A stretch of 35,955 nucleotides of DNA from Candidatus Obscuribacter phosphatis (GTDB taxonomy: Bacteria; Cyanobacteriota; Vampirovibrionia; Obscuribacterales; Obscuribacteraceae): positions 73,960 through 109,914 of the forward strand of contig MOYA01000005.1 in NCBI GenBank assembly GCA_001899315.1, written 5' to 3'. Made by a program: the position numbers and the translations under genes. Below the pieces are notes generated by a model, which was not told where the DNA came from, did no database searches, and saw only the letters and a program-made list of their open reading frames with translations. This document shows, piece by piece, positions 8,767-35,955 of this stretch. Every line of letters begins with the position of its first letter. Position 1 is the first letter of the stretch.

Positions 8767-9534
8767 TTAGACGTTGGGGTCCACGGGCAGGTAGTCCAGC
8801 AGCGTCTCCATCTTGTCGATGTGGAGCGTGTCCGCCGGTACTTCTTCCGGGCTGTAGACATGCTCGCGGTCGATGAGGACCGTGCGCATGCCAAGCTCGC
8901 GGGCAGGCAGGATGTCGTTTTCCAGGTGATCGCCGATCATCAGGCAATCCTCCGGCTTGACGCCAGCGCGTTCGCATGCGCGCCGGAACAGCCTGATGTC
9001 GGGCTTTGCGTAGCCTTCTTCGAAGCTGTACACCCGCAGTTCTTCAGGAATGAACTTGCCAAGGCTCTCTTCGTCGAAGAGCGCTTTGACCGGGAATCCC
9101 CAGAGATTGGAGATGAGTCCATGGTTGAAACCAGCCGCCTTCAGCTTCTTGAGGACCTTGCGGGAGTCCACGAAGAGAAGCACGCACTGCGATTCTTTGT
9201 GCGTCACTTCACTGAATTCGGGCACCATTTCAGGCTCAACCGAGAGGTTGAACGGACGAGCCACCGCGCGCAGGAAGCCGACAGGGTCTTGTTCACCCTT
9301 GCGGTTCGGATGCGGGATATTGGTGGTCAGACAGACTTTCAAGAAGTCCGGGTCAACCGACTTGATGTTGCGCAGGTCGATTGTGTCCGTATGCAGCTTG
9401 AGGATGCGCTGGAGGTGCAGGATCGGCTCGCGGTTGTCCGAACGAGCGATTGTCCCCCAGAGGTCCCACCAGATGACCTTCGGTGCTTCCGAGGTCGACC
9501 AGGGTTTGATAGCAATACCATTTGATGGAGTCAT
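8767..9534 (-). CDS. HAD-superfamily hydrolase
   Basis: A 255-residue haloacid-dehalogenase-like phosphatase. Motif I is WWDLWGTI, with nucleophile Asp-24. The usual second Asp two residues on is Trp-26, a DxWGT variant also seen in other HADs. Motif II is LISN (Ser-142), motif III YAKPD (Lys-177), and motif IV MIGDHLENDI (Asp-202 and Asp-207). A helical cap occupies about residues 35-115. Loss of the second Asp, normally the acid/base in phosphatases, leaves open whether this is a phosphatase or a dehalogenase-type enzyme. The ATG at 9534 follows AAGGAGCTCACC. It lies between the zinc-ribbon gene and truD, with gaps of 205 and 157 bases. Confidence 0.88.
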   Translation of the reverse strand: MTPSNGIAIKPWSTSEAPKVIWWDLWGTIARSDNREPILHLQRILKLHTDTIDLRNIKSVDPDFLKVCLTTNIPHPNRKGEQDPVGFLRAVARPFNLSVEPEMVPEFSEVTHKESQCVLLFVDSRKVLKKLKAAGFNHGLISNLWGFPVKALFDEESLGKFIPEELRVYSFEEGYAKPDIRLFRRACERAGVKPEDCLMIGDHLENDILPARELGMRTVLIDREHVYSPEEVPADTLHIDKMETLLDYLPVDPNV

Positions 9535-30030: not shown

Positions 30031-30216
30031 TTAGTCCAACTCCGATAATAGATTGCAGGCCGGCTCTAGACCATTATCACAGGCGCAACTAAGCCATTTG
30101 CAAGCCTGCTCAAGATTCTCATTGTCCAGTTCAAACTTACCCAATTCAAACTGAGCCTCTGCCACTCCCAGTTCAGCAGACTGCCGCAACCATTTTATGT
30201 ATTCTTTCGGCTTTGC
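30031..30216 (-). pseudogene. Out-of-frame 3' end of the Sel1 kinase
   Basis: In a second frame after the kinase frame drifts, this stretch encodes KPKEYIKWLRQSAELG, then VAEAQFELGKFELDN, then EQACKWLSCACDNGLEPACN, clear continuations of Sel1 repeats. Removing one base from the CCCC run at 30216-30219 joins it to the kinase and gives 748 residues, ending at the stop at 30031. The stretch is therefore the displaced end of that gene and not a separate one. Confidence 0.85.
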
Positions 30217-32278
30217 CCCAATGTCCGTCTCGATACATACAAGCAAGCGCATAACAACAGTCAGGGTCATTCAATTCGGCACCTTTCTTGTACCAATAAA
30301 ATGCTGCTTCATGGTCTTCTTCACCAAAAGTTCCATCGTAATAACTATTGGCAAGAAAGAACATGGCATCGGCATTATCAAGTTCGGCGGCTTCTTTTAG
30401 GTGCTTTAAAGCCTTTTGAAGATCTTTCTTGATTTTGTGGAAGCCCTTTAGATAGAAGGTACCAAGCCAAGTCAAAGCGGCAGGATAGCCCTCGGAAGCA
30501 CATTCTTTGATAAGCGCAACCGCCCTCTCTTCATCGACCGTTCCTGCCCTGCCGTCGGCGAGCCAGCCGCCAAGACTGGTTCTAGCTTCCTTACTACCCT
30601 GTTCTGCGGCGCATTCCATCCAATAAATTGCCAACTGCGGATTAGGCTCGTAAGGCATAGTCTTTGCGCCGGTCAAATAAAAGTAGCCTAGGGCAATCTG
30701 GGCATCAACATTGCCTAATTCGGCAGAACGATTCAACCAGTAAAGTCCAGCCTGGCAATCCGGCTCGAAATCTTCACCATGCAATAATTTGTAGCCCAAG
30801 TAATACTGAGCATCTACATCATCATGTTCGCAAGCACGGTTAAGCCAATGTCTAGCAGAATCGAGATTCTTGTCTGTGCCGCGACCTTCTAAATAGCGCG
30901 AACCGACAAGAAATTCTGCAAAGGCATTACCATCCAGAGCGGCGGATGAATACCAGTAGAAAGCCATTGCATCGGATGCTTCCACACCAAAACCATTCTC
31001 GTAATAAGAGCCCATATCGAGCCTGGCTTCGATATTGCCGTCTTTGGCGGCGCTTTCGCACCATCTAAATGCTTCTTCAGGGTGAAAAGACTGCGACCAT
31101 TCTTGGCTATAAAAATAAACCAGCTCCATCTTTGCCTGGGTATCACCACTCTCGGCACGGGCGAGCAAATCAAGCATACGTTTCTGATGAGACTCCCTCA
31201 CTCTCTCAGCATCATCAGCTAAAGCTTGAGGCTCTTGAATATAGCGATCTTGCTCAGCGCTGTAAAACTCGAGCGAGTCATAGCAATTTTGCAAATCATC
31301 CTTCATTTCGAGCATAGATTGATAGCGCTCATCAGGTTCTTTAGCCAGAGCCTTGAGAGCGATCTCATAAAGCCTGCCTTCAATAGCATTGGCAGGCTTA
31401 AACTCGGGTTGATCATTGATATGACTGAAAACCACCTTTATGTAGCTTTCGCCCTCGAAGGGCGGCCGCCCGGCCACACATTCAAACAACATACAACCCA
31501 TCGAATAAATGTCTGACCTATGATCTATTTTCTGACCCATACATTGCTCTGGGCTCATATAGAGTGGCGAACCAAAGACCTCTCCAGTTTGAGTGAGACG
31601 CAAACTAATCTGCCCTGGACGTGTAAATATTTTGGCGATGCCAAAGTCGACCAAAACCGCAGAGAAATTGCGACCCGATTGATCAACCGGCTTGGTCAAA
31701 ACCATGACATTACCCGGCTTGATATCGCGGTGCACAATATGACGACGATGAGCATGCTCAAGGGCGCCGCAAATGTCTATCAGGCAGAGAATCAAAACAG
31801 AAAGCATACAATCTGGACTCTCCAGCAATTCATCCAGAGGAGTTCCTTCCAAATATTGCATCACCATAAACGGCAGCCCATCCTGGCTTACAGCGTAGTC
31901 CTTAACCTTGACTATATTGGGATGAGAAAGAGAGGATGCAGCCCTAGCCTCGTTCATAAAGCGCTTACGCATGACTGAGTCTTCGGCGGTCTCCTTCACC
32001 AAGACCTTGATGGCGACTGTTTCAAAACCACTTTCACTTTCTGATGCTGGCGCTTTGTGATCATATGCTTTGTAAATCACACCCATGCCGCCACGACCAA
32101 TTTCCTCCACTATTTCATAGCGCCCTTCCAGCATAAAAGAGGCTGGTTTATAGCTGAGAGTCGAGCTTAGTGCGCCGCCATCTTTCGGGCAAAATGACGA
32201 ACCGAGAGGATACTCTTGCTTACAAATTTGGCAATAGTTGACCTGAAGACCATCAACAGAATCACTTTCAAGAGTCAT
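30173..32278 (-). CDS. Ser/Thr protein kinase with zinc ribbon and Sel1 repeats
   Basis: The ATG at 32278 (MTLESDSVDG) follows CGGAG. A short zinc-ribbon-like segment, CQIC then FCPKDGG (16-35), comes first. The kinase domain (about 54-330) has the Gly loop GRGGMG (61-66), Lys-91, HRDIKPGN (Asp-185), DFG (211-213) and SPEQ, all active-site residues of Hanks-type kinases. From about 380 on, at least eight Sel1/TPR-like repeats (e.g. AFYWYSSAALDGNAFAEF) should bind partner proteins. No membrane segment, so it is cytoplasmic. The frame ends abnormally at 30173 in non-repeat sequence (RIHKMVAAVC) because of a frameshift; two more repeats follow in another frame. The 3' end faces the LRR gene. Confidence 0.92.
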   Translation of the reverse strand: MTLESDSVDGLQVNYCQICKQEYPLGSSFCPKDGGALSSTLSYKPASFMLEGRYEIVEEIGRGGMGVIYKAYDHKAPASESESGFETVAIKVLVKETAEDSVMRKRFMNEARAASSLSHPNIVKVKDYAVSQDGLPFMVMQYLEGTPLDELLESPDCMLSVLILCLIDICGALEHAHRRHIVHRDIKPGNVMVLTKPVDQSGRNFSAVLVDFGIAKIFTRPGQISLRLTQTGEVFGSPLYMSPEQCMGQKIDHRSDIYSMGCMLFECVAGRPPFEGESYIKVVFSHINDQPEFKPANAIEGRLYEIALKALAKEPDERYQSMLEMKDDLQNCYDSLEFYSAEQDRYIQEPQALADDAERVRESHQKRMLDLLARAESGDTQAKMELVYFYSQEWSQSFHPEEAFRWCESAAKDGNIEARLDMGSYYENGFGVEASDAMAFYWYSSAALDGNAFAEFLVGSRYLEGRGTDKNLDSARHWLNRACEHDDVDAQYYLGYKLLHGEDFEPDCQAGLYWLNRSAELGNVDAQIALGYFYLTGAKTMPYEPNPQLAIYWMECAAEQGSKEARTSLGGWLADGRAGTVDEERAVALIKECASEGYPAALTWLGTFYLKGFHKIKKDLQKALKHLKEAAELDNADAMFFLANSYYDGTFGEEDHEAAFYWYKKGAELNDPDCCYALACMYRDGHWGKAERIHKMVAAVC

Positions 32279-32624
32279 CGGCTCACTCCGAACATGCACC
32301 AGAAGCAGAAGCAATTTAGGCCAGCTTGCAAGTCTCCCGACAAGGCGCCTCTCTCATGCTGCGCTAACAACTTCAACTTAGTTTACCCCTTTACAAGAGG
32401 AAATTTATCTCTATCTGTTTAGTAATCATGAAGCCATTGCTAGGTTCAGTTTGTATCTGTCTTTTTAGTCTCCAGTTAACTTTAGCCCAGAGATAAAGCA
32501 ATCAAAACCTCGGAAAGACTCTCCTCTACGCATCCGCGAAGAGAGCATTGGACCGACTCTCGGCTCAGACCTGGAACCTGAGGCAGCTCTAATCACAAGA
32601 ACCTCGCAGTGTTAGGAGGCATTT
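32279..32624. other. Divergent intergenic region, kinase and nucleoside hydrolase
   Basis: About 346 bases with no supported gene. The last 130 bases before the plus-strand start can form short stems, for example CTCT/AGAG around 32520-32546 and GAGAG/CTCTC around 32542-32562. This hints at a structured leader, but I cannot match it to a known riboswitch class. Confidence 0.4.
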
Positions 32625-33686
32625 ATGTCAAATCAAACGGTAATCTTGGCGGTGGTCGATGCTCCCGATCCCGACAACTTTGCTCAGCTGGTAGCCCTGG
32701 CCAAGCTCAATCCGCAAGCCAAGCTCTTCGTCATGCTCACCGGACGCCCGGTGCGCTTCAACGCCAGTCGCGATCACGCCAACTGGGAATGGGACCTGGA
32801 AAGCTCACGCATGGCCCAAGAAGCATCAGCCATGCGGGCTAAGAACTTTCTGCGTCACTTCGATGTGGAAGTAAGCCGAGTCTTCGACGGCGGCATCGCA
32901 CCGCGCACTTTGGTGCCGCATTGGGTGCATTTCGCCGAATACTACAAATTTCTCGATGTCGACCCGCTCGCCGCTCTGCGACACAGCGAACTCGAACCCC
33001 AGGAAGACCTGATCAAGCTCTTGCTCGCCCTGCCGCCGGCTTCGGTGAAAGTGGCTGTGGGCGGACCAATGACCGGTCTGCATCAGCTCATCGTGCGCTG
33101 TCCCGAAGTGGTCAGTCGCTTTGCCGAAGTACATGCCATGTTTGCCACCTGGGGCAATGTCGAACTCATGCAGTTCGATGAAAAACCACGCGGCGCAGTG
33201 CAGTTCAATGTTGCTTGCGACCCGCAGGCAGCCAACGCTGTATTGACCGGACTCGACTGCCCGGTCTATCTCATGCCGACCGAAGTGACACGGGTCAAGT
33301 CCATCGGCTTCCAGAATGCGCAGAAACTGAGAGAGGCACTGCCCGACAACAAAGGTAGTCGCGCCCTCTATCACCTCTACGCCCTCTGGTATGACGCAGC
33401 AGTCAAGCCTCGGCAAGAGAAAAATCCAGACGAATTGATTTTCATCCACGACATCGTCGCCGCTTTCAGCCTCGATGCAGAGCTGAGAGACGCTATTTAC
33501 GACGTGGTGCCGGTGGAGATCACGTCAGTCCCCCATCTGCCGCGCGAAGGCAGCGAATGGGGCAAGGTGTTCATGAAGGAGCGCCCGACAGACCAAGCTC
33601 AAGGCTGCAAGATCTTTGCCGCCAAGGGCCTCAAAGAAAAGGGAGCCGAACTCTATCTGGAGACTTTGAAAAAGGTCTTCGCCTAG
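32625..33686 (+). CDS. Nucleoside-hydrolase-like protein (IunH superfamily), divergent
   Basis: A 353-residue member of the inosine/uridine nucleoside hydrolase fold, which splits the N-glycosidic bond of ribonucleosides using a Ca2+-bound water. Recognisable elements are VDAPDPDN (11-18, the calcium loop, normally DxDPGxDD), VAVGGPMTGLHQLI, VQFNVACDPQAAN (normally E-x-N-x-x-x-D-P-x-A-A), VYLMPTEVT and IHDIVAAF (normally the last metal Asp region). The calcium loop differs from the classical enzymes: Gly is lost and the final Asp is Asn-18, so activity is likely but substrate may be unusual. The ATG at 32625 has a perfect GGAGG. It opens a cluster with a NUDIX gene and a second, unrelated-looking hydrolase of the same superfamily. 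Confidence 0.85.
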   Translation: MSNQTVILAVVDAPDPDNFAQLVALAKLNPQAKLFVMLTGRPVRFNASRDHANWEWDLESSRMAQEASAMRAKNFLRHFDVEVSRVFDGGIAPRTLVPHWVHFAEYYKFLDVDPLAALRHSELEPQEDLIKLLLALPPASVKVAVGGPMTGLHQLIVRCPEVVSRFAEVHAMFATWGNVELMQFDEKPRGAVQFNVACDPQAANAVLTGLDCPVYLMPTEVTRVKSIGFQNAQKLREALPDNKGSRALYHLYALWYDAAVKPRQEKNPDELIFIHDIVAAFSLDAELRDAIYDVVPVEITSVPHLPREGSEWGKVFMKERPTDQAQGCKIFAAKGLKEKGAELYLETLKKVFA

Positions 33687-33691
33687 ACAGC

Positions 33692-33734
33692 TTCGGAAAA
33701 CGGATTTAGTTCTATACTCTCTGATTCGGAGAGT
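33692..33734 (+). promoter_or_regulatory. Possible promoter and hairpin before the NUDIX gene
   Basis: TATACT (33714-33719) resembles a -10 box; TTCGGA 16 bases upstream is a poor -35. The hairpin ACTCTC/GAGAGT (33716-33734) overlaps it, so the same bases could also act as an mRNA structure between the first two genes. Confidence 0.3.
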
Positions 33735-33776
33735 CGACCTCAGTCAACCTCTAACTTTAGAAATCTGGAGAAACAG

Positions 33777-34568
33777 ATGAGCAACCAAAGCCAAACCGTC
33801 ACCACCGCCTGCGGTATCACCGTCACCGCCGAAGCCGGCATCGACCTGAACATCGCCACTGCGGCGAAGCCTTTCACCGACTGGCTCGCGCAGATCGATC
33901 GCAAGCGCTTCAATGTGCGCAACGTGCACATTCAGTCGGTGGACATGTTCGGTCCCCGCGTCGGCTTCATCAAGTTCAAGGCCGACGTCGCCGACAGCCA
34001 GGGTCGCGCCCTGCCCGGCATCATCTTTGCCCGCGGCGGCGCCGTCGCCGTGCTGGCCGTCCTGGTCTGCGAAGGCAAGGCTCACGCCGTCGTCACCGTG
34101 CAACCGCGCCTGGCCACCGGCGACTTCGAATTCGTCGAGACCTGCGCCGGCATGCTGGACGGCTCCGGCAACTTCGCCGGCGTCGCCGCCAAGGAACTCA
34201 AGGAAGAGCTGCACATCGATCTGGCTCCCGGCGAACTCGTCGACCTGGGCGCCCTGGCCGGCTTCAAGAACGGCATCTACCTGACCCCGGGCGGCAGCGA
34301 AGAGACCATGCGCTTCTTCGCCTTCTGCCGGGAAGTCTCGCGCACCGAGCTGGACGACATCAACGGTCGCCTCACCGGCGCCCTCGACGAAGGCGAGCAG
34401 ATCACCCTCAAGCTGGTCAACATCGACGACCTGGCGGCCATCCCCGACGCCAAGACGATCATCGCCCACAGCCTGTATCAGCGCTTCAAGGACAAGATTC
34501 CCGGCACCGACAAGATCAAGTCGAGCAGCACCGTGGGCGCCACCGCCCGGGTGCAGAGCATCCACTAA
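33777..34568 (+). CDS. NUDIX hydrolase, ADP-sugar diphosphatase-like
   Basis: A 263-residue NUDIX protein. The box, residues 125-147, reads GMLDGSGNF then AGVAAKELKEELHI. The catalytic Glu-140, Glu-143 and Glu-144 are kept, but three box positions differ from G-x5-E-x7-REUxEExGU: first Glu is Gly-131, Arg is Lys-139, and the late Gly is His-146. The spread-out GMLD-GNF-GVAAKEL form and the large N-terminal domain (1-90) recall plant NUDX14 and human NUDT14, which hydrolyse ADP-ribose, ADP-glucose or UDP-glucose. The ATG at 33777 has GGAG at 7 bases. Codons are G/C-ending. It lies between two nucleoside-hydrolase-like genes. The substrate is inference. Confidence 0.87.
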   Translation: MSNQSQTVTTACGITVTAEAGIDLNIATAAKPFTDWLAQIDRKRFNVRNVHIQSVDMFGPRVGFIKFKADVADSQGRALPGIIFARGGAVAVLAVLVCEGKAHAVVTVQPRLATGDFEFVETCAGMLDGSGNFAGVAAKELKEELHIDLAPGELVDLGALAGFKNGIYLTPGGSEETMRFFAFCREVSRTELDDINGRLTGALDEGEQITLKLVNIDDLAAIPDAKTIIAHSLYQRFKDKIPGTDKIKSSSTVGATARVQSIH

Positions 34569-34610
34569 GCATCCCTCTAGATGCTGCCATTTGACTGACT
34601 GCCAGAGCCA

Positions 34611-34731
34611 GAGGAGGAAGCGAAACGCTTCCTCCTCGCCTGCATTCTAATCAGTGGAAGCGTTTCGCTTCCTCCTCGCTTGCGTTCTAATGAGAGGCAG
34701 CACTTCGCTGCCTCCTCTTCTGCATACTAAT
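34611..34731 (+). ncRNA. Three tandem hairpins at 40-nt period
   Basis: Three units of 41, 40 and 40 bases (34611-34651, 34652-34691, 34692-34731), each a hairpin followed by a tail like CTGCATTCTAAT. Stem 1 is GAGGAGGAAGCG with CGCTTCCTCCTC (12 bp, loop AAA). Stem 2 is GGAAGCG with CGCTTCC (7 bp, loop TTT). Stem 3 is GAGGCAGC with GCTGCCTC (8 bp). Loop centres fall at 34624, 34664 and 34704, exactly 40 apart. Stem 3 differs in sequence from 1 and 2 yet still pairs, so base pairing itself appears conserved. No T-run follows any stem. The array ends 16 bases before the second hydrolase start and would be in the mRNA leader. Confidence 0.75.
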
Positions 34732-34747
34732 AAAAAAGGACAGGACA

Positions 34748-35911
34748 ATGTCGGTTGAAAAAGTCGAGAAGAAAGCTCTCCCCATCTGGATCCCGCTCTT
34801 CAAAGATCTGTTCGTGATCACCGACCCGGGCCGCGACCAAGACGACGAAGATGTGCTGGTCATGCTCAACCGCATGATTCGCCTCGAAATCTTGCAGGTA
34901 CTGGGTGTGGTGGCCAATCTAGCTCCCAGCGCTCAGCGAGCGCGCCTGGCCAAGGGAACACTGCAGCTCTTGGGACAGAACCAGGTGCCGGTAGGCTATG
35001 GCAGCAATTGCCTGCAGAGTGAAGAAGACGGACTGGAGTACCAGTTCTCGGTGGGCTATCTGGCCGAACACGACAATGTCGTGGACGGCAAGGCGCTCAT
35101 TTACGAGACTCTCAAGAACGCGCGGCCCAAGTCGATCGTGCTCTTGCTCATCTCTGGTCTGACCGATGCCGCCGCCGTGCTGCGCGAACACCATTATCTC
35201 TTCCAAAAGGCGGTGCGGCGCGTGGTGATCATGGGCGGTGTGAAGACCTGCAAGGACAATCCCAATGCGCCCGAACTCGATGGCGAGGGTCGCATCCTCC
35301 CCGATGAGACCGCGCAGAACCACAAGTTCGACCTGGAAGCAACACGCTATCTCTACCGCATGCTGCAGGACATGGAGATTCCCATCACTGTCGTCTCGCG
35401 CCATGCCGCAGTGGCCGCCCGCGTGCCGCGCTCGGTCTACGAAGAGATGGCGGCGACTGGTCATCCCATCGGCACTCGCCTTTTGGCGGCTCAGAAAGAA
35501 GCAATCCAGAAAGTCTGGGAACGGGCAAACATGGCAGCTGACGATCCCAATCGTCTGGAATTGCCGGCTCGTTGCGACAAGACCTGGTTCTGCAATAACT
35601 TTCTGGGCGGCAAAGGCGCCGAGCTGACCAGCCAAGACAACATCTGGGATCTGGTGCAGACCTTCAATCTCTATGACCCGTGCACGCTTGCTGCCTGCAT
35701 TCCCAATCAGCGCGAGCATTTCTTCTCTCCCACCGTGGTGGAAGTGCACGGCGTCGAACACCTGATCATCGGCGTCAGCGCTCAGGTTCACAACGTGAGA
35801 GAACCGCTGGCACTGGCCGAGCATCTGCGCAACATGCTGGTGGAGAGCCTTAAGCAAGCGCAGGTCTCAGCATCGCCCAAGGCTCAAGAAGCGACCAGCA
35901 AGGTCGCCTAG
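34748..35911 (+). CDS. Second nucleoside-hydrolase-like protein
   Basis: A 387-residue protein of the same superfamily as the first gene of the cluster but not a close copy. The calcium loop is ITDPGRDQDDEDVL (24-37), a DPG-x-DxDD form with two extra residues. VVIMGG (around 160) matches the superfamily MGG motif, and LYDPCTLAAC the late metal Asp region. Between these, NHKFDLEATRYLYRML and ITVVSRHAAVAARVP stand where classical enzymes have EFN-DPEAA and PLDVT. The N-terminus has no signal peptide. AGGACAGGACA precedes the ATG at 34748, just after the hairpin array. Ribonucleoside hydrolysis is likely; the base specificity cannot be read. Confidence 0.82.
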   Translation: MSVEKVEKKALPIWIPLFKDLFVITDPGRDQDDEDVLVMLNRMIRLEILQVLGVVANLAPSAQRARLAKGTLQLLGQNQVPVGYGSNCLQSEEDGLEYQFSVGYLAEHDNVVDGKALIYETLKNARPKSIVLLLISGLTDAAAVLREHHYLFQKAVRRVVIMGGVKTCKDNPNAPELDGEGRILPDETAQNHKFDLEATRYLYRMLQDMEIPITVVSRHAAVAARVPRSVYEEMAATGHPIGTRLLAAQKEAIQKVWERANMAADDPNRLELPARCDKTWFCNNFLGGKGAELTSQDNIWDLVQTFNLYDPCTLAACIPNQREHFFSPTVVEVHGVEHLIIGVSAQVHNVREPLALAEHLRNMLVESLKQAQVSASPKAQEATSKVA

Positions 35912-35934
35912 TTGCGCCTTTCTAAGTTTTGAAA

Positions 35935-35955
35935 AGAGGCGCCCTGCGCCTCTCT
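35935..35955 (+). terminator. Terminator hairpin, cut by the window end
   Basis: AGAGGCGC (35935-35942) pairs perfectly with GCGCCTCT (35946-35953), 24 bases past the last stop. The following sequence is outside the window, so a T-run cannot be checked. Confidence 0.7.

Follow-up and report, generated by a model that had tools for sequence, protein, structure and literature searches.

A three-hairpin array between a NUDIX gene and a nucleoside hydrolase gene of Candidatus Obscuribacter phosphatis, probably a locally multiplied terminator-type hairpin

The stretch of DNA analyzed here (the window; 35,955 nucleotides) belongs to a 5.49-Mb Candidatus Obscuribacterales MAG (G000, in which the window's contig is C5), whose nearest relatives are Candidatus Obscuribacterales / Melainabacteria MAGs. 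The host lineage is an uncultured, non-photosynthetic relative of cyanobacteria. Two co-directional genes on the forward strand, encoding a NUDIX-domain protein and an inosine-uridine-type nucleoside hydrolase, are separated by a gap of 179 nt, and the ORF listing of the window contained no ORF of at least 80 aa overlapping this gap (34569-34747). Upstream, a first nucleoside hydrolase gene at 32625-33776 precedes the NUDIX gene, giving the order hydrolase-NUDIX-hydrolase, and a single protein with a protein kinase domain followed by Sel1 repeats is encoded on the minus strand at 30173-32314. The features of the gap and its flanks are as follows.

33777..34568, + strand: upstream gene, NUDIX-domain protein, 263 aa (Pfam PF00293, E 1.6e-6)
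34568..34585, + strand: small 6-bp hairpin AGCATC CCTCTA GATGCT at the NUDIX stop codon, read from the sequence; a longer version lies at the same place in the sister species
34611..34637, + strand: hairpin 1, perfect 12-bp stem GAGGAGGAAGCG/CGCTTCCTCCTC with loop AAA (-21.4 kcal/mol alone)
34638..34655, + strand: spacer 1 (GCCTGCATTCTAATCAGT), from the sequence
34656..34672, + strand: hairpin 2, 7-bp stem GGAAGCG/CGCTTCC with loop TTT, the reverse complement of loop 1 (sequence and repeat analysis, fold)
34673..34691, + strand: 3' remainder of the unit 2 stem, TCCTC, and spacer 2 (GCTTGCGTTCTAAT), from the sequence
34692..34717, + strand: hairpin 3, 8-bp stem GAGGCAGC/GCTGCCTC (34694-34714) with loop ACTTC, to which GA/TC adds 2 bp past a one-base bulge; ortholog of the single hairpin of the sister species
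34718..34747, + strand: tail 3 (TTCTGCATACTAATAAAA), leading into the ribosome-binding stretch of the hydrolase, AAAGGACAGGACA; the tail CATACTAATAAAA is common to the window and the sister species
34748..35911, + strand: downstream gene, inosine-uridine-type nucleoside hydrolase, 387 aa (Pfam PF01156, E 2.9e-12)
35935..35953, + strand: terminator-type hairpin behind the hydrolase, first copy, AGAGGCGC CCT GCGCCTCT; the sister species has one

Repeat analysis and folding bore out the first-pass annotation in its description of three hairpins whose loops are centred at exact 40-nt intervals and which have a common tail. The array, also detected by TRF, is a direct repeat of 3 x 40 nt (34616-34735) whose copies, at 34616, 34656 and 34696, follow one another at exactly 40 nt; their loops are centred on 34624, 34664 and 34704, and they share the tail TTCTAAT/TACTAAT. 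Identity to unit 1 is 83% for unit 2 and 70% for unit 3. In unit 2, CAGT stands in place of the outer 5' arm GAGGA, which limits the stem to 7 bp. The predicted fold of the region reaches -76 kcal/mol compared with -46 +/- 4 for shuffled sequences (z = -7.0; none of 200 shuffles was as stable), and first-order Markov surrogates (2 x 1.98 Mb) yielded no matching tandem-hairpin cluster. The missing T-run was likewise verified, as no contiguous T-run follows any of the stems and no plus-strand terminator was predicted in the array. A promoter in the unit tails was considered and discarded: TTCTAAT resembles a -10 box, but it has no partner hexamer and gave no hit in the plus-strand scan.

A further feature, missed in the first-pass annotation, emerged from the same comparison of units. 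Loops 1 and 2 are exact reverse complements (AAA and TTT), so that the 5' half of hairpin 1 (34611-34632) can pair without mismatch with the corresponding part of unit 2 (34656-34677), an inverted repeat of 22 bp with a duplex energy of -42.4 kcal/mol. In the minimum-energy fold of the single strand, this duplex replaces hairpins 1 and 2 and is predicted to be preferred at equilibrium. It was seen in the window species only; units 1 and 2 could possibly supply an RNase III site, which would be a novelty of this species.

The same gap was compared among relatives that share the gene pair. In the sister species (G031; hydrolase 96% identical), it holds one hairpin, GAGGAGGGGGC ACTTC GCCTCCTCCTC, followed by ATTTACATACTAATAAAA, and the match of loop and tail identifies it as the ortholog of unit 3. 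Among the more distant relatives, G030 (hydrolase 69-70% identical) and G024 (63-64%) carry one hairpin each, of unrelated sequence, while G006 and G020 (65-68%) keep the same gene order with a gap too short for a hairpin. A recognizable ortholog of the window hairpin was accordingly found in one close species only. Because these relatives retain the NUDIX-hydrolase order with an unrelated hairpin or none, the gene order predates the hairpin, which in turn predates the array; that copy number went from one to three and not from three to one is suggested by the presence of one hairpin, though of unrelated sequence, in both G030 and G024. The gap between the first hydrolase and the NUDIX gene of the sister species also holds a hairpin, which is T-poor.

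The third stem uses different bases and still pairs, from which the first-pass annotation had argued for selection on RNA structure. The pairing part of this claim stands in a weak sense: across the four aligned units, 92.5% of cells are paired and 2 of 11 pairs show changes on both sides, a level reached by 28 of 500 shuffles. The compensatory changes are real but thin, and the pairing signal is suggestive, not strong. The step from pairing to selection is unsafe, as revealed by 31 orthologous gaps compared between G000 and the sister species (DNA ~87.5% identical), where ordinary single hairpins also carry compensated stem changes (gaps 0, 16 and 18) and 5 of 22 non-identical orthologous hairpins match better with one of them inverted; the margins are small in some of these (one point in gap 0), and the clearest are gaps 16, 18 and 25. 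Spacer inversion and arm homogenization are marks of template switching between the arms of inverted repeats (PMC8604942), a process also able to give rise to RNA hairpins and to preserve them (PMC8794818). The two features expected of a template-switch hotspot, inverted loops and compensated changes in the arms, were both found here. The loop inversions between species point to template switching, which would keep stems perfect without selection, and the AAA/TTT loop pair of window units 1 and 2 is, judged from its sequence, the same signature; at the window array itself, these comparisons do not separate selection from template switching.

The whole 5.5-Mb genome was searched with a covariance model built from the three window units and the sister's hairpin, in addition to DNA and pattern searches. 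Convincing scores were obtained only at the window locus and its ortholog, so the copies at other genes for which the first-pass annotation had proposed this check did not materialize; the next match (E 0.003) is an ordinary lone hairpin of the terminator type that lacks the tail. Rfam returned no match at the gathering threshold for the window array or for the sibling arrays described below. The model search also exposed other arrays with the same architecture and different stems. These sibling arrays consist of 36-44 nt units in direct repeat, are intergenic, have a stem private to each locus, and lie at the 3' ends of unrelated genes. Our tandem-repeat and hairpin survey covered ~2.0 of the 5.5 Mb of G000 and 0.38 Mb of hand-picked sister contigs. 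The large C1, C2, C5 and C6 stretches were not chosen for arrays, except that C5 is the window's own contig and that C1, C2 and C6 carry weak model matches; model matches guided the choice of the sister contigs and of two short G000 stretches, so the resulting rates are not unbiased. The following arrays were recorded, in which the groEL, S1-like and tRNA identities are those we presume from reading the translated protein or the sequence rather than from a family search.

G000 C5:202451: 4 units, stem GGGGAC/GTCCCC, behind a presumed S1-like gene
G000 C1:77974: 2 units; ortholog at G031 C25:20391 with 4 units
G000 C1:379004: 3 units directly behind the presumed groEL; 4 in the sister species, and a single unrelated hairpin in G030
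G000 C1:865001: behind a presumed tRNA gene; of the 3 terminator-type hairpins, two are homologous copies in tandem, and canonical terminators with T-runs are part of the array or its source
G031 C19:29399: 3 units; the counterpart in G000 is a single hairpin, and that in G030 a canonical terminator with T8

For most arrays, the preceding feature is a stop codon or an RNA gene; the called genes on either side of the C19 array are divergent, and the array follows a conserved stretch that may encode a small RNA. Close species have different copy numbers at the window array (3 vs 1) and at sibling loci (2 vs 4, 3 vs 4 vs 1, and 1 vs 3). Within 1.96 Mb, 8 of the 12 intergenic hairpin pairs lying 22-75 nt apart were homologous, compared with 0.09 expected from random pairs. 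Behind the window's own hydrolase, too, the hairpin is repeated: at least two copies flank 79 N just beyond the end of the window (window 35931-35955 and G000 C5:109915-110030), versus one in the sister species. The N run may be an assembly gap brought about by an array of hairpins at this place, or a masked stretch. No array was found in 0.4 Mb of G013, from another genus, an absence that is not significant at the rate seen in the surveyed genomes. A perfect 36-nt repeat at G000 C1:19256-19382 (3.4 copies) was excluded from the arrays as apparently coding on inspection; it probably lies near the start of a gene that, from its sequence, we take to be purD-like. On G031 C19, a 71-nt stretch outside called genes (~9318-9388), upstream of a glmU-like gene and just before a terminator hairpin, is 96% identical to a more distant species while its flanking DNA is 69-75% identical; it has no Rfam match and is a candidate unannotated small RNA.

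The window units share the GC-rich, short-loop hairpin of intrinsic terminators, and none of them carries the U-tract. Behind G000 genes, 48% of hairpins have at least four T in the next 8 nt versus 22% in random intergenic sequence, and this T enrichment marks the hairpin class as terminator-type; about half of the gene-3' hairpins in G000 nevertheless have fewer than four T in 8 nt. The earlier statement that the window hairpins are not ordinary terminators therefore holds for the missing T-run and fails for the class as a whole, which is common 3' of genes in G000 and from which some sibling arrays, built from or related to canonical terminators, are drawn. Without a U-tract, efficient termination at the site is unlikely, and the most economical reading would make the window hairpins a 3' exonuclease barrier or a partial pause or termination point between cistrons, as is established for hairpins of this kind.

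Taken together, the array is probably a U-poor, terminator-type intercistronic hairpin that has been tandemly multiplied in the window species. The common ancestor with the sister species would have carried a single terminator-type hairpin in the NUDIX-hydrolase gap; in the window species, a unit of ~40 bp (hairpin plus short spacer) would then have been duplicated in tandem to three copies, presumably through replication slippage or a template switch at the palindrome. Further template switches from arm to arm may subsequently have restored pairing in mutated stems and turned one loop around (AAA to TTT, or vice versa). At the RNA level, the hairpins would mark an intercistronic boundary, blocking 3' exonucleases and perhaps slowing or partly terminating transcription, so that the NUDIX message would be protected and the hydrolase part of the message would gain a structured 5' flank. 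Since other, unrelated gene-end hairpins were likewise copied in G000 and the sister species, the pattern looks like recurrent local DNA duplication rather than a special regulator. On present evidence, the window hairpin is ordinary when taken singly, unusual as a case of recurrent local amplification, and not a cluster-specific regulator. None of our results points to three copies doing more than one, and any role of the extra copies is putative. Three observations count against this explanation: hairpins that lack a U-tract inside a co-directional pair make real termination doubtful; the conservation of hairpin 3 and its tail with the sister species would also fit a hydrolase leader; and, with a recognizable ortholog of the hairpin in one close species only, the proposed order from one copy to three depends on G030 and G024, whose single hairpins are unrelated in sequence.

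Such a leader, or processing element, would have RNase III cut the duplex of units 1 and 2 and so separate the NUDIX and hydrolase messages, with hairpin 3 setting the 5' end of the hydrolase message or its translation. We consider it unlikely. The perfect duplex is the minimum-energy fold, and conservation of hairpin 3 in the sister species runs up to the ribosome-binding site, but no such duplex exists in the sister, where there is only one hairpin, and in relatives that share the gene order the hairpin is unrelated or missing; on the same comparison, the hydrolase-specific translational control suggested in the first-pass annotation is not supported. Sequestration of the ribosome-binding site by the tail was rejected as well, its pairing being weak in the window fold and, by inspection, not preserved in the sister's sequence. 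Somewhat less improbable is a neutral by-product, in which the instability of palindromes in this lineage leads to duplication and self-correction, and the hairpin and its copies are of no consequence at the site. Copy number does vary at every array comparable between species, loop inversion is frequent, and the gaps of G006 and G020 lack the hairpin altogether; against this stand the T enrichment of hairpins behind genes and the good pairing of most orthologous hairpins despite the divergence of the DNA, which suggests that single hairpins are kept.

The regular 40-nt spacing would suit a small RNA precursor or a protein-binding RNA with repeated sites, which is nonetheless very improbable given that neither loops nor stems are conserved from unit to unit or among species, that the same sequence does not recur elsewhere in the genome, and that Rfam has no match. 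Short palindromes in close array also recall BIMEs (PMC2817692). Membership in a dispersed REP-like or other mobile palindromic family is extremely improbable, and we rejected it: no dispersed copies of one consensus and no further true copy were found genome-wide at the sensitivity used, stems differ from array to array, and the genome-wide scattering named beforehand in the first-pass annotation did not appear.

The window offers a compact natural test case for how perfect RNA stems arise and persist. Within one genus, the same kind of hairpin exhibits duplication, loop inversion and compensated stem changes, which means that compensatory changes in bacterial intergenic hairpins are no proof of RNA selection until template switching has been checked; the copy number of gene-end hairpins, moreover, is a fast-evolving trait. 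It is a tentative and rather doubtful extension that Obscuribacterales carry an unnamed recurrent class of locus-private terminator-type hairpins, amplified repeatedly to 2-4 copies at a nearly fixed period of ~40 nt, a period that would arise either from a specific mechanism of duplication or from selection favouring hairpins in series at gene ends, where they would serve as a dosage-tunable 3'-end element. A limited literature search turned up nothing relevant on duplicated terminator arrays, which is not proof of novelty.

Among known systems, intrinsic (Rho-independent) and tandem terminators resemble the window array in their GC-rich perfect stems, short loops and position 3' of genes, and some sibling arrays contain canonical terminators with T-runs or are derived from them (the C1:865001 array and the G030 relative of the C19 array); the window units differ in being free of T-runs, placed inside a co-directional pair, and mutually homologous at a fixed period of ~40 nt. 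Intercistronic RNase III or exonuclease-barrier hairpins are known in bacterial operons and likewise lie between co-directional genes, with the potential 22-bp duplex as a further likeness, whereas the predicted window duplex was seen in one species only. REP and BIME elements are also short intergenic palindromes in close arrays, but arrays of the window type are not dispersed, have a different stem in each array, and consist of directly oriented units. Template-switch (quasipalindrome) mutations (PMC8604942, PMC8794818) share arm homogenization, loop inversion and multi-base compensatory changes with the hairpins described here; the published cases are mutations inside individual inverted repeats of yeast genes and RNA genes, whereas in the window whole hairpin units have also been tandemly multiplied.
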